64,000 nucleotides of DNA from Adhaeribacter pallidiroseus (GTDB lineage Bacteria; Bacteroidota; Bacteroidia; Cytophagales; Hymenobacteraceae): NCBI RefSeq assembly GCF_003340495.1, contig NZ_QASA01000001.1:1736001-1800000 (forward strand). Reading direction: 5' to 3'. The notes beneath the pieces were generated by a model. That model made no database searches and was not told the DNA's origin. It worked only from the letters and a program-made list of their open reading frames with translations. Below, one piece after another: positions 14,070 through 18,609 of the stretch. The translations under genes and the position numbers were made by a program. Position 1 is the first letter of the stretch. Each line of letters starts with the position of its first letter.

Positions 14070-14136
14070 TAGGTGCGTTTATACCGCTATATTGGTGTAC
14101 TAAACGCACCAATGTCGTTTAGCAGTAAGTTATGCC
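14070..14136 (+). other. Left boundary of the cassette array: attI-like or truncated attC
   Basis: The core G^TTATGCC (G at 14129) opens cassette 1. To its left are three related 7-mers, GCGTTTA (about 14074), TAAACGC (about 14101) and CGTTTAG (about 14116). They form overlapping inverted repeats (CTAAACG with CGTTTAG, and GGTGCGTTTA with TAAACGCACC). I find no matching inverse core (RYYYAAC), so this is not a complete attC. It could be an attI with integrase-binding repeats, or an eroded attC. Confidence 0.4.
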
Positions 14137-14444
14137 TCATTATAGAATAAAAATTCAATGATAGAACTTAGAGTAGCAAGGGGATGGGCAGTTTTCATAT
14201 ATCTAACTGCTCCACTACTTATCTTTCTTTTCGGATGGCTTTTATTTATGCCTTTCCTGCCTAATGCAAAAGGGAATTCTAACAATTTAATTTGGTTTCT
14301 TACTCCGGTTTCATTGGGAATGATTGGGCTAATGGTAATTGGATTACTAGATACAATATTTGGAAAAGTAGTAATTGAAGCAGACAGAATTTATTCTAAA
14401 AGCATCTTATCAAACAGGGAGTTATTGTTTAATGAAATAAGTAC

Positions 14445-15053
14445 TCAATCAAAATTAAGTATAGGAAAAAGGGATAAGTCAAGTTGTTTGAAATCCAGGG
14501 TAAAAGAGGTACCAAAACCAGTAATGATGCGCTCTAGAGCTTGTTTCAAATGGGTTAAAGAAAGATAGTCCGCCGCTTTGAGCCAATGATGTTTGATTTG
14601 CTTCCAAAGTTGTTCGATCCGGTTTAAGTGGGGGCTATACTTAGGTAAAAAAAAGAGGTAAAGGCCTTTGCTTTCCCACTCGGCTTGTTTAGCGCGAAAG
14701 GTAGTACTGGTATGTAAAGGGGCATTATCTAAAACAATCACCGTCATTTGGGATATAGTTGGGCAAAAATCTTCCAGGCATTCTATAATAAAATCAGCAG
14801 TAAGGCTTTCTTGTTTCTGGTAAGCCGTGAGCTGATTAGTAGTCGACAATAAGCCAAACACATTCACCCGGGCACTGCGTTGCGCTAAGAGGCAAGCTTG
14901 CTTGCCTTTTTTAATCCAACCATAAGGAACAGTCGGCATCAGCGAAAAACCACTCTCATCCCCAAAGCACAGGTCGATGTATCCAGCTTGGGCCAAGAAC
15001 AGTAAAGTAAATAAGGTAGTGCGTTTTTGTTCATATTCTTTTTCGTCCTGCAA
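14445..15053 (-). CDS. IS630 transposase, DDE catalytic half (orfB)
   Basis: This frame holds the DDE_3 nuclease domain: first Asp in LCFGDESGFSLMP, second in MTVIVLDNAPLHTS, and the Glu in SPHLNRIEQLWKQIK. Its stop codon lies within the left terminal inverted repeat. The frame stays open upstream of the ATG at 15053 back into orfA (residues IGYRWKRFRQWVKPLQ). The natural product is therefore a fusion with orfA, of about 345 residues, made by a -1 shift at the A7 run at 15095-15101. Confidence 0.88.
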   Translation of the reverse strand: MQDEKEYEQKRTTLFTLLFLAQAGYIDLCFGDESGFSLMPTVPYGWIKKGKQACLLAQRSARVNVFGLLSTTNQLTAYQKQESLTADFIIECLEDFCPTISQMTVIVLDNAPLHTSTTFRAKQAEWESKGLYLFFLPKYSPHLNRIEQLWKQIKHHWLKAADYLSLTHLKQALERIITGFGTSFTLDFKQLDLSLFPILNFD

Positions 15054-15058
15054 GGGCT

Positions 15059-15490
15059 TTACCCACTGGCGGAAGCGTTTCCAGCGGTAACCAATTTTTT
15101 TAAAAACCGCTTGAGCGTACTTTCACTCAGGGACTGACCCAGTTGCTGCTCGATTTGGGCTTTTGCTAGTTTCAAGCGCTTGTTTTCCTTTTCAAGCTGC
15201 TCTTCGACTACTTGCACATGGGCCTGGTTCTGTAGCTTCAACAAGGGCTTTCTGCCTTGGCCGGATTGGTTTTGCAAGCCGGTTACTCCCCTCGCTTCAA
15301 AGCGATTGAACCACTGATAAATACTGAGATCAGCTACTTGGAACATGGCCGCTAACTCTTGAACCGAGTAGCCGGCAGCAGACAACAGAATGGCCTGACA
15401 GCGGTTGCGGAACCGGTAGCTTTTCCCCATTTTATGACCTTGCTCTAAAGCGTGTTTTTGTTCTGGAGTAAGTCCTTTGATATAGCGCAT
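15059..15490 (-). CDS. IS630 transposase, helix-turn-helix half (orfA)
   Basis: The 143-residue frame contains the winged helix-turn-helix pair used to bind the terminal repeats (AILLSAAGYSVQELAAMFQV, then IYQWFNRFEARGVTGL). A basic linker and coiled coil follow. Near its end, the coding strand reads TTA AAA AAA TTG (A7 at 15101 down to 15095), a classical -1 slippery site. Past it the zero frame gives only a short unrelated tail (TAGNASASG), while the -1 frame continues into the DDE domain. It may be programmed frameshifting, as in many IS630 members, or a missing A. Confidence 0.85.
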   Translation of the reverse strand: MRYIKGLTPEQKHALEQGHKMGKSYRFRNRCQAILLSAAGYSVQELAAMFQVADLSIYQWFNRFEARGVTGLQNQSGQGRKPLLKLQNQAHVQVVEEQLEKENKRLKLAKAQIEQQLGQSLSESTLKRFLKKLVTAGNASASG

Positions 15491-16449
15491 AGCGCAAAGT
15501 TACTATTTACTATTTTCTTATGCTTAATTTTGAATCAGTACTTACTTGGGTTCAGAATTAATGAAAACGATATAATAATTGAACCAAATAAACCTGACAA
15601 AAAGAGAATTAAAATCAGTACCTACTTTAGCAGAACAAATGAATTAGTTGAATGGTTAGCATCTCAGTACCCGAACTTAGACTCATTAAATGCCGCACAG
15701 GAAGAGCTTGAAATTGTTTTCGACCAATCTTTAGGAAAGACTCCCAAACAAAGAGAAGAAAGATTTTCAAAGGCCCGAGGAACAGCTAAAATTATAAATT
15801 GGATTGGAGGTATAGTTGGAATATGGACGTGGTTCTGGACAAACCCATATGAATTTGCTATTATTGCCTCAATTGCAGTTCCTATAATTGCTATAATTGC
15901 CTTAAAACTTTCAAAAGGACTTATTAAGATTGATGAGAGAAACAACTCTGCTTATCCAACAATTTGTTATGGTTTCATTATCCCTAGTTTAGGATTGTTT
16001 ATGCGGACTCTATTAGACTTTAACATTTTTAATTATGATAAGGTCTGGATTTCAACTAGTGCAATTACAATTATAATTATGGTTGTTTTATTAGTAAGCA
16101 ACAAAGAATTTAAAATTAAAAGAGTTAATGATTGGATTGCTGTTATTAGTTTGTCTTTAATAACTTTCGCTTACGGATTTGGTGTCATAATAATTTTAAA
16201 TTGCCTATATGACAAATCTGAACCGGAACTATTTAATCCAAAAGTATTGGAAAAGAGAATAAGCGCTGGCAGTTCAACGGATTACTATTTGCAACTAACT
16301 GCTTGGGGGCAACAGAAGGAGGAGGAAGAAGTATCCGTATCAAAAGAATTTTATAACCAAGTAAACAAGAATGATGTCGTAAAACTTTATTTTAAGAAAG
16401 GACTTTTGGAAATCCCGTGGTTTACACTAGGAAGATAAAAAATAACAAA

Positions 16450-16517
16450 GGCATAACGTTTAGTATATACATAATCCTCACTTCGTTGCGGACTTTGCAT
16501 ATACTAAACGTTATGCC
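16450..16517 (+). other. attC-like site 1 (closing cassette 1)
   Basis: GGCATAAC (16450-16457) begins a stem that continues as GTTTAGTATAT and is inverted at 16497-16517, ending G^TTATGCC with the cut after 16510. About 20 of 21 positions pair around a 26-base loop. The stem is more perfect than classical attC sites. Confidence 0.7.
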
Positions 16518-16529
16518 ACATTCAAAGAC

Positions 16530-16994
16530 ATGAGATTAAATAAAGCAATAAGGACAGTATTACCACCAATTGCAGGCTATTTAACATTCTTACTTTTTGA
16601 CGGACTTTTTGAAAAGCTATTTCCTCTAGAGCCTTATGATGAGCCTTCAGCACCAGGAATAGTTTTTGTGTTTTGGAAACTTGGTGATCTAGCAATGATC
16701 GCACTAGGTTTCACATTTCAATACAAAGTAATTGTTCCAAAGACAAACAATAGCACAAAAAAAGTAATTATTCGAGCAGCTTTATTCGGAATTATACTTG
16801 GGGTGATTTTATCTTTTATAGATTCATTTTACAGAGCTAGTATAAAAGATGTATTAATAGAATTTGTAAGGTTCCTTGTTGATTATGAAAGCTTTGTAAT
16901 GAGAAACTTAGCGCTTCTAACGGTTTTTAACTTTATTGAAAATAAGAAAAAGGTAAATAGTGGTTTAAGGAGCAAAATAATTAACGAGGCATAA
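16530..16994 (+). CDS. Cassette 2 gene: small membrane protein of unknown function
   Basis: The 154-residue protein has about four predicted membrane helices (roughly 10-30, 48-66, 83-103 and 125-142), separated by short polar loops, and a basic C-terminus (ENKKKVNSGLRSK). I do not recognise a family. Its stop codon (GCA TAA) lies inside the inverse core GGCATAAC of the closing attC-like site, a tight packing typical of integron cassettes. The start is 19 bases into the cassette, leaving almost no leader. Confidence 0.7.
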   Translation: MRLNKAIRTVLPPIAGYLTFLLFDGLFEKLFPLEPYDEPSAPGIVFVFWKLGDLAMIALGFTFQYKVIVPKTNNSTKKVIIRAALFGIILGVILSFIDSFYRASIKDVLIEFVRFLVDYESFVMRNLALLTVFNFIENKKKVNSGLRSKIINEA

Positions 16995-17042
16995 CAAAAC
17001 CTAAAGCGCATTAAGAACGCGCCATAGCCAATCCGTTGTGTG
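16988..17042 (+). other. attC-like site 2 (closing cassette 2)
   Basis: The inverse core GGCATAAC is at 16988-16995 and the cut is after G17035 before TTGTGTG. The two cores do not complement each other, as expected when neighbouring cassettes come from different circles. The interior is short (about 40 bases) with only a weak GCGC-centred stem. Confidence 0.65.
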
Positions 17043-17052
17043 TAATATTGAC

Positions 17053-17601
17053 ATGAAAGAAACAAGCCGTCAGGAAAGAATAGGATATTTAAGACAGCAG
17101 CAAGAACGCAGGCATTTTCTTGGTGACTTTCTTATGGCTTTGTCTAAAATCATTGGAAAGGAGATTCCTGAGGCTGCCGTTTTGAAGCTTGAAGAAACAA
17201 ATGCAGCAACGGACAAGCTACATCAAAGAGAATCTCAGGCACCGACATTAAGATTTACATTCCCGTTCACTCAGGTTGAGAAATTTAGAGAAATATTCTC
17301 TTCCCTAAAACCAGACCTAAGCGACCCTGATTCCTATTTTGCAACGGCAAGATTCTTCAACTCATTTTTCCTGCGATTAGACAGCTCTTTTGCCGTAGAT
17401 AAACTGGAAGAGATAATAGAACTGGATAGTAATACATTCTATATATTCCACAAGGATTTCAAGAACGGACTCTCAGTTGACAGCAATGAGGAGAAATGGA
17501 CTGAAAACGGTAAGACTGAATATGTTTGGACTTATGAATTGAGTGTGTGGGGTAAAGAATGGGTAAATAAAATTCATTTAGCTTACAATAAGCATACATA
17601 A
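17053..17601 (+). CDS. Cassette 3 gene: soluble protein of unknown function
   Basis: The start is taken at the ATG at 17053 (MKETSRQERIGYLRQQQERR); an upstream GTG lies within the attC core and is unlikely. The 182-residue product is soluble and charged, with an N-terminal amphipathic helix rich in Arg and Gln and a C-terminal beta-rich part (NTFYIFHKDFKNGL, YVWTYELSVWGKEWVNKI). No signal peptide or membrane segment is seen and I do not recognise a family. It is the only array gene besides cassette 5 that looks cytosolic. Confidence 0.7.
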   Translation: MKETSRQERIGYLRQQQERRHFLGDFLMALSKIIGKEIPEAAVLKLEETNAATDKLHQRESQAPTLRFTFPFTQVEKFREIFSSLKPDLSDPDSYFATARFFNSFFLRLDSSFAVDKLEEIIELDSNTFYIFHKDFKNGLSVDSNEEKWTENGKTEYVWTYELSVWGKEWVNKIHLAYNKHT

Positions 17602-17609
17602 AAATACTA

Positions 17610-17681
17610 CACACAACGGTCTCGTGTAAACGGCAGCTACGGCCGACGGCCTTGCCGCCGTTTACACGAGACCGTTGTGCG
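17610..17681 (+). other. attC-like site 3 (closing cassette 3)
   Basis: The inverse core CACACAAC (17610-17617) matches this cassette's own start over 10 bases. CACAACGGTCTCGTGTAAAC plus GGC forms a perfect 23-bp stem with its complement ending G^TTGTG (cut after 17674), around a GC-rich loop that can itself fold. This is the most stable hairpin of the array. Confidence 0.72.
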
Positions 17682-17711
17682 TCATGTAATAGAGTTAATT
17701 GAAAGTATAAA

Positions 17712-18026
17712 GTGAAAAAGGAAATTAAATATTCCGCATTTGGCTCGTTAGGAATAACTATTTTTTATTTCGCAATATCGTTTTTTTATTTTTATGGAGC
17801 CCATTTCGATCCTTCAACAAACTCTCCTTTTCGTAAAGCATTTGAAAAAATAATTATTTCTCCCGCATTCATAACCTTTGGATTTCGATATGCAGGTGAA
17901 GAAGGATTAGCGTGGGTTATAGGTGTGGTAATTTTTGGAATCACCTGGATAATAGGCTTTTATTTAATCAAGACGATTGTCAAAGCATATAAATTAAAAA
18001 AAGCACGCTCGCACAACAATGGCTAA
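17712..18026 (+). CDS. Cassette 4 gene: two-helix membrane protein of unknown function
   Basis: The 104-residue product starts at a GTG (17712), the only start that keeps the N-terminal basic residues (MKKEIKYS) before the first helix. Two membrane helices are clear (about 9-30 and 66-90), with a loop containing FRKAFEKIIISPAFITFGF and a lysine-rich tail. The stop falls within the attC-like site, so the last codons (ARSHNNG) are encoded by the recombination site itself. No family is recognised. Confidence 0.62.
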   Translation: MKKEIKYSAFGSLGITIFYFAISFFYFYGAHFDPSTNSPFRKAFEKIIISPAFITFGFRYAGEEGLAWVIGVVIFGITWIIGFYLIKTIVKAYKLKKARSHNNG

Positions 18027-18138
18027 AAATAATCGGGCGGGTAAATGTAATGAAATTACAATTAGACCATTACTTTTGTCGAATGGCCAAGGCCGTAACA
18101 CTTTAAGCCCGATAGCTTTTAGCCTGAAACGTTAGGCA
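18010..18138 (+). other. attC-like site 4 (closing cassette 4), long form
   Basis: The layout is closest to a textbook attC: CGCACAAC (18010-18017), spacer AAT, arm GGCTAAAA, bulge, TCGGGC, a long variable middle, GCCCGA, bulge, TTTTAGCC, spacer TGAAAC, then G^TTAGGCA (cut after 18131). The outer cores differ because the next cassette begins with TTAGGCA. Confidence 0.75.
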
Positions 18139-18158
18139 ACATTCATAAGAAATATAAT

Positions 18159-18488
18159 TTGGAAGATTTAAAACAGGTCTATTATCTTTTAAAGAGCAAA
18201 TGGAATGTTAAATCCTTTGAGTTTCTTCAAACTGGATATTGGGATACGGATAGAAAAATAAAATCCATCGATTTAACTGACATAAGACTAGAGGATGAAA
18301 ACAGTGAAAAAGAAGAAGGCTATCTCTATTTAATTGAAATATATAATACGGTTAAAATTGAAGTTTTTAATAAAAGTTCTTTCTATCTAATTGAAAGTCT
18401 ACATCAAAATACCTTAACATTATCCTGCTATTCTGAATACCAGCAGAAAGAAGCTTATAAGGTATTCACCTTTAAATTAGAAAAATAA
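18159..18488 (+). CDS. Cassette 5 gene: small soluble protein of unknown function
   Basis: The frame of 109 residues begins at a TTG (18159) and carries no membrane segment or signal. It is acidic and beta-rich (KSIDLTDIRLED, EGYLYLIEIYNTVKIEVFNK, YKVFTFKLEK), like a small ligand-binding or immunity-type fold, but I recognise no family. Its stop is 5 bases before the inverse core TGCCTAAC. It starts 27 bases into its cassette. The TTG start is uncertain but no ATG fits upstream. Confidence 0.6.
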   Translation: MEDLKQVYYLLKSKWNVKSFEFLQTGYWDTDRKIKSIDLTDIRLEDENSEKEEGYLYLIEIYNTVKIEVFNKSSFYLIESLHQNTLTLSCYSEYQQKEAYKVFTFKLEK

Positions 18489-18492
18489 ACAA

Positions 18493-18548
18493 TGCCTAAC
18501 CACACCTTTACGGTAGCTGCTCCAACGCAAAGCCCAGTATGTTAGGAG
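18493..18548 (+). other. attC-like site 5 (right end of the array)
   Basis: TGCCTAAC (18493-18500) complements this cassette's own start GTTAGGCA. The right core is G^TTAGGAG (cut after 18541). No further cassette follows: the molybdenum oxidoreductase gene ends at 18610 on the other strand. Confidence 0.62.
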
Positions 18549-18609
18549 CCATTCTTTAAAATTGAATAAAAAATTATTGGATAAACAAACAGATAACCCT
18601 AAAAATGAA

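Follow-up and report, generated by a model that had tools for sequence, protein, structure and literature searches.

How a row of integron-type gene cassettes could be put together with no integrase beside it is the question raised by a stretch of the Adhaeribacter pallidiroseus chromosome (64,000 nt; assembly GCF_003340495.1, NZ_QASA01000001.1:1,736,001–1,800,000), here called the window; its host genome is labelled G000. Integron integrases (IntI) carry an additional domain, the IntI-specific patch, which is described as required for their activity (Messier and Roy 2001, as cited in PMC3053210) and which search tools use to call integrons (PMC9668308). Gain of the patch has been proposed to have let an ancestral enzyme recombine single-stranded sites (Escudero 2016, PMC4792948). 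One complete integron, that of Salinibacter ruber M1, is given for Bacteroidetes proper in PMC9024848. We consider it about 80% probable, from sequence comparison, that the window is one of about a dozen platforms, each an attI-like site with a short attC array, on which a single tyrosine recombinase without the patch probably acts in trans.

Results

attC sites were scored with R1, a covariance model derived from 23 sites in the window (three), a second host array (L025, five) and a related array (L036, 15). Five units on the plus strand fill window positions 14129–18540, and in each the GTTNNNNN start and the NNNNNAAC end of the same unit are reverse complements. This match had been claimed in the sequence-only reading of the window and is exact at all five variable bases in 5/5 units. 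Cassette 1 (14129–16509) opens with GTTATGCC at 14129, the reverse complement of GGCATAAC at 16450. Its open reading frame (ORF) is in pieces, one starting at 14158 and one ending at 16438, and its attC (16450–16517, +) scores 19.1 bits in R1 (E 0.026), with a DNA fold z of −9.1. Cassette 2 (16510–17034) pairs GTTATGCC at 16510 with GGCATAAC at 16988 and holds a 154-aa ORF (16530–16994), for which Pfam gave no match, and an attC of 40.7 bits (16988–17043). Cassette 3 (17035–17673; GTTGTGTG at 17035, CACACAAC at 17610) has a 182-aa ORF (17053–17601) and an attC of 16.7 bits (17610–17682, +, E 0.091). Cassette 4 (17674–18130; GTTGTGCG at 17674, CGCACAAC at 18010) has a 104-aa ORF (17712–18026) and a long attC (18010–18138), and cassette 5 (18131–18539; GTTAGGCA at 18131, TGCCTAAC at 18493) a 109-aa ORF (18159–18488) and an attC of 45.4 bits (18493–18549). 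R1 finds 4/5 window attCs. Those at 16450 and 17610 lay outside its training set and those at 16988, 18010 and 18493 within it; the scan missed the 116-nt site at 18010 despite its place in training. Sequence comparison confirmed that, in the attCs that end at 17035 and 18131, one side does not match the other.

An attI-like site (14097–14131, +) runs up to precisely the G^TT cut predicted for cassette 1, with dyad arms at 14098–14107 and 14115–14124 (p 0.028). It is similar to the attI beside the host recombinase described below; in R3, an attI model trained on 15 sites with the window excluded, it scores weakly (11.3 bits, E 0.19). An Rfam search of the window found nothing, and the host recombinase as tblastn query gave chance matches only (E 4.3 and 8.1). 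By R1 rather than IntegronFinder, positions 16450–18549 hold at least two attCs within 4 kb and no integrase nearby, the definition of a cluster of attC sites lacking integron integrases (CALIN).

The own-end rule extends well beyond the window. R1 gave 211 matches in the fetched loci, of which 192 were taken into the tests and 182 were readable (10 had no readable AAC or GTT); the 19 left out of the own-match, palindrome, cassette-copy and core-site counts were weak, lone or opposite-strand doubles. Variable bases were compared between neighbouring R1 sites 180–1600 nt apart, outside the three training sources. Own start and own end agreed at 5/5 variable bases in 80/112 of these pairs, versus 1/157 comparisons across one attC and 360/20,000 random pairs, which is the pattern predicted by circular cassettes joined at G^TT. 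The arrays have the R''/L''...L'/R' structure of integron attCs, the right spacer exceeding the left by 2–4 nt in 163/167 sites with a stem, which is compatible with attC recombining as a folded bottom strand. The base after GTT is A or G in 180/182 sites (GTT itself being required to read a site); the full integron core, GTTRRRY in the R box, occurs in only 24/182. Together with similar arrays elsewhere in the genome and the genus, the own-end rule supports the earlier claim of integron-type cassettes in a Bacteroidota chromosome.

Copies of single cassettes also respect the cut. The first cassette of L025, the recombinase-borne array of the host, is a 90% copy of window cassette 3, matching from the exact GTT cut. 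A further copy in a Rufibacter array (L085) starts at the cut as well (91% identical to the window, 93% to L025), its far end falling within a weak R1 match. In genome G006, a cassette is 99.9% identical over 739 bp between the recombinase-borne array L036 and the distant array L037, with both ends at the cut. The outcome that would have told against cassettes in the sequence-only reading, no attC matches together with a gene order conserved without cassette-precise indels in related strains, was not seen: R1 matches sites in the window and in the genome, and, between arrays and genera rather than strains of one species, window cassette 3 reappears from precisely the GTT cut.

An intact tyrosine recombinase is encoded 0.41 Mb from the window (G000:C1:1339522–1340535), where an attI-like site and an array on the same strand adjoin it. 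This enzyme is probably the missing integrase of the window. The description of the cassettes as lacking an integrase thus holds for the window and probably fails for the genome. On the patch test, its sequence is not that of an IntI. It is ~42 residues shorter at the patch, has 20 residues where the IntI structure 2a3v has 63, and scores 204 bits against TIGR02249 (cut-off 265), with positions about 180–241 unmatched. The Rufibacter and Flavobacterium enshiense recombinases likewise fall below this cut-off (208 and 212 bits). The KGxK-to-HxLRH gap, measured in part of the 76 recombinase loci of the chain test below, spans 62–69 aa (mostly 64–65) in the patchless recombinases versus 106–107 in three true IntI. 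The search for a patch-bearing tyrosine recombinase suggested by the sequence-only reading yielded the recombinase without the patch.

In sequence comparison the recombinase is Xer-like. Residues R194, K222, H283, R286, H309 and Y318, which we take to be catalytic, are invariant in the 29 rows of alignment A2. In a tree of 101 rows (root not placed; XerD control loci and L002 absent), the four IntI rows group in a single clade (100/99) and array-positive rows are dispersed among the patchless ones. The branches of L079 and L146 are long. Five rows labelled Xer, a provisional label, have a 71-aa gap; one of these five, L136, is over no cut-off. Orphan patch-bearing IntI-type genes with similar neighbours occur in two related genomes, G006 (L001, G006:C1:1659408) and G003 (L002, G003:C2:4434734). 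Tyrosine replaces the first histidine of HxxRH in L002, and a stop interrupts the frame at HxxRH in L001.

Recombinase, attI and array share one orientation. The first cassette with an R1 site starts 123–167 nt after the recombinase match in 17/24 loci (six lie further off and one is without a match), placing attI beside the recombinase and the cassette insertions at G^TT. A dyad precedes the cut at p<0.05 in 11/16 loci of the host family and 9/12 of other families (12/19 tried gave a site), and significant dyads leave a gap of 4–7 nt to GTT, once 9. Tandem attI dyads lie just upstream of the cassette start in L211 and L213, ~40 bp apart in L211.

R3 also shows attI sites distant from any recombinase. 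At least 54 were listed in four near-complete genomes (at least 13 in G000, 14 in G003, 12 in G004 and 15 in G006), leaving out reverse-strand palindrome echoes and weaker matches and keeping a few partial matches; an integron has a single attI. Same-strand attCs lie within 5 kb downstream of 41/54 of these sites, upstream of 1, and opposite-strand attCs at 2; random positions have a same-strand attC within 5 kb in 0.7% of cases. Recombinases close to the host query number one each in G000 and G006 and none in G003 and G004. At most of the host attI sites fetched, flank homology covers only ~30–50 bp at the site, a few pairs sharing 93–174 bp; at some sites of related genomes it reaches about 475 bp.

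A conserved gene for a 128-aa zinc-ribbon protein lies upstream of the recombinase and divergent from it in 31/92 loci, for example at L036 733–1116 (−), many of the 92 having too little upstream sequence to show the gene. The nearest Pfam family of the protein is DUF2116, at 26.6 bits just below the 26.8 cut-off. The 31 loci comprise 21 of the host family, three named Hymenobacteraceae (one of which coincides with a family locus) and seven others, including three named Flavobacteriaceae. The protein is perhaps an accessory or regulatory factor. At L038 7375–8116 (G004), a zinc-ribbon gene and an attI lie 319 nt apart with an array and no recombinase between them; by its layout, this platform seems to have lost its integrase.

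Sites and recombinase occur together across genomes. R1 found attCs in 25/59 related genomes, namely all 23 of four family genera and two further genomes of the order (5 matches and 1 match), and none in the 14 genomes of two other family genera (37 family genomes sampled). R3 found attI in 23/59, the same 23 genomes of the four genera, and in 0/14 of the other two. The recombinase was present at E<1e-80 in 20/23 genomes with attC and attI and in 0/14 of those two genera. Among the recombinase-bearing genomes, the gene is cut by a contig end in G014 and has one stop in G033; G005 has recombinase fragments, and G010, of the negative genera, a 133-aa fragment. In an even sample of Bacteroidota, the recombinase type was found at E<1e-60 in 94/296 genomes.

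R2, a broader attC model, was insensitive (7 matches over 52 loci including known arrays; matches in 14/296 phylum genomes), so a chain test of own-matched sites was used in its place. Since a looser version yielded doubtful positives, L194 among them, we relied on a stricter one, in which a positive locus had at least three own-matched sites, above all 100 shuffles; both versions shuffled the sequence in 12-base blocks. At least 5 kb of downstream sequence was available for 83 loci, 76 of which were neither XerD controls nor IntI. Chains were found at 38/76 recombinase loci, 12/17 in the family and 26/59 outside it, the latter including Algibacter onchidii, Flavobacterium enshiense and Winogradskyella ursingii; Rufibacter was also positive. 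None of the five control loci, which score best as XerD, and neither of the two IntI loci was positive. Upstream stretches of at least 2 kb gave chains of 3 at most, mostly 0 or 1, and loci outside Bacteroidota were all negative.

Among 146 delimited cassettes, the median length was 535 bp and the longest ORF lay on the cassette strand in 142. For 23/30 cassette ORFs from three arrays, Pfam gave no match at E≤0.001, and for 24/30 none over the Pfam cut-off. At E≤0.01, PADLOC matched none of 10 cassette proteins, five of them from the window. Cassette 1 of the window is interrupted by an IS630-like insertion (14435–15547, −; limits set by inverted repeats I1), whose transposase (DDE_3, E 3.7e-32; HTH_32, E 1.2e-10) lies in two frames, 14445–15053 and 15059–15490. 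The window attCs at 16450–16517 (13/14 inner positions paired) and 17610–17682 are near-perfect palindromes, alone in this among the 182 sites measured (2/182). We suspect quasi-palindrome correction, a process that would wipe out the asymmetry of the site. On a 66-kb contig of the host (G000:C3; L225 and L226), attC-like matches occur at two places 35 kb apart, in stretches 99.7% identical over 14.7 kb, and the contig may represent a plasmid in duplicated or concatenated form. Equal attC scores there had raised the suspicion of a plasmid-borne copy of a window cassette, which was rejected.

Discussion

Judged by its sequences, the system works like an integron yet fails IntI membership. Our proposal builds on the cassette anatomy, the attI and attC sites, their phyletic co-occurrence with the recombinase and the cassette copies with ends at the cut. 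Platforms of an attI-like site and a short attC array would be scattered over the chromosome of this member of the Hymenobacteraceae (Cytophagales). A single tyrosine recombinase, kin of Xer and IntI without the IntI-specific patch, would serve them in trans. It probably binds double-stranded attI, which carries a dyad a few bp before the crossover, and would join circular cassettes at G^TT and excise them at attC hairpins folded from single strands. The divergently encoded zinc-ribbon protein may act as an accessory factor.

Several points weigh against this proposal. The window attI-like site is a weak R3 match (E 0.19), and 20/23 of the R1 training sites were chosen with a stem filter, so that stem covariation is in large part circular. 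Related genomes do not count as independent, nor do related arrays; with cassettes shared between some arrays, the own-match pairs are not fully independent either. G003 and G004 retain attI and attC with no recombinase, G006 has a second, 38% identical recombinase homologue with a stop, and one attI match of G003 lies ~20 kb from its IntI-type gene. No chain was seen at 38/76 recombinase loci. Perhaps the recombinase family extends beyond the arrays, or perhaps the chain test is weak; several chainless family loci do have R1 matches, and the chain of the host's own array reaches only 3.

Cassettes and attI sites might instead be frozen fossils, spread long ago with no movement today. The near-perfect palindromes and insertion sequence of the window array would fit such decay, as would the absence of a recombinase from G003, G004 and the L038 platform. 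We hold this to be unlikely, given the 99.9% identical cassette in two G006 arrays and recombinase frames free of stops in the host and most of the relatives listed. It is improbable, to a still greater degree, that the arrays are remnants of classical integrons, in which the cassettes were placed by a conventional IntI with the patch, since lost or located elsewhere, and the patchless recombinase is an idle neighbour. G003 and G006 do have an IntI-type gene above the TIGR02249 cut-off, that of G003 being the one with an attI match in its wider vicinity. However, R1 matched no attC in the fetched 60-kb surroundings of either gene (L011–L016), their HxxRH motifs are changed or stop-interrupted, and 57/59 relatives, including 21/23 of the attC-bearing family genomes, have no match over the cut-off.

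Cassette movement by the host XerCD, as exploited by some mobile elements, would suit the Xer-like character of the recombinase and the attI dyads, which in our reading look dif-like. This is very improbable: an Xer-like gene persists in each of the 14 family genomes that have neither attC nor attI (the label was confirmed at five other loci only), the five XerD control loci carry no arrays, and the recombinase adjoins attI in 17/24 loci. Dispersed hairpin repeats of the repetitive extragenic palindromic type that merely flank genes are scarcely credible: the attC-like sites are many and those seen are intergenic, but the own-match test speaks strongly against them, as do cassette copies with ends at the cut and the single orientation downstream of attI.

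The proposed cassette system bears comparison with several known ones. It shares with sedentary chromosomal integrons that have IntI the attI beside the recombinase, tandem same-strand cassettes, the G^TT cut, the R''-L''...L'-R' anatomy of attC and a content of mostly unknown small genes; it differs in the missing patch, the rarity of GTTRRRY and the zinc-ribbon gene beside many recombinases. The window array resembles a CALIN in having no integrase nearby, but has its own attI-like site (a weak match) and a candidate recombinase in trans. In Treponema integrons, too, the integrase is transcribed towards attI, in the cassette direction (PMC3607928), although those genes go by the name intI and the patch is absent here. 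For the integron-like subgroup of tyrosine recombinases (Smyshlyaev 2021, PMC8138268), compared by description only, the accessible part of the paper ties no arrays to members lacking the insertion. Cassettes at scattered chromosomal places recall attG insertion sites (Loot 2024, as cited in PMC12901181 and PMC11023631), whereas most places here have a conserved ~41–49 bp site like the attI of the recombinase. In a literature search reaching neither bioRxiv nor most subscription journals, we recognised, among the papers listed, no work linking patchless recombinases, or many attI sites, to Bacteroidota attC arrays.

With less assurance, we lean towards a separate and widespread Bacteroidota class of cassette capture, built on a Xer-like recombinase that has no patch, frequently accompanied by a zinc-ribbon protein, and on many attI sites used in trans. 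It would represent either the kind of ancestor that gave rise to integrons or an independent invention, and the IntI patch would not be required to recombine attC hairpins. If so, a recombinase without a supposedly essential part would capture genes, and the picture of one integron with one attI would change. The idea of Escudero 2016 can be tested directly on a natural system that has attI, attC and many cassettes but no patch. The recombinase type occurs in nearly a third of the Bacteroidota genomes sampled (94/296), though arrays are found at only part of its loci, and this phylum would hold a large reservoir of mobile genes of unknown kind that has been overlooked.

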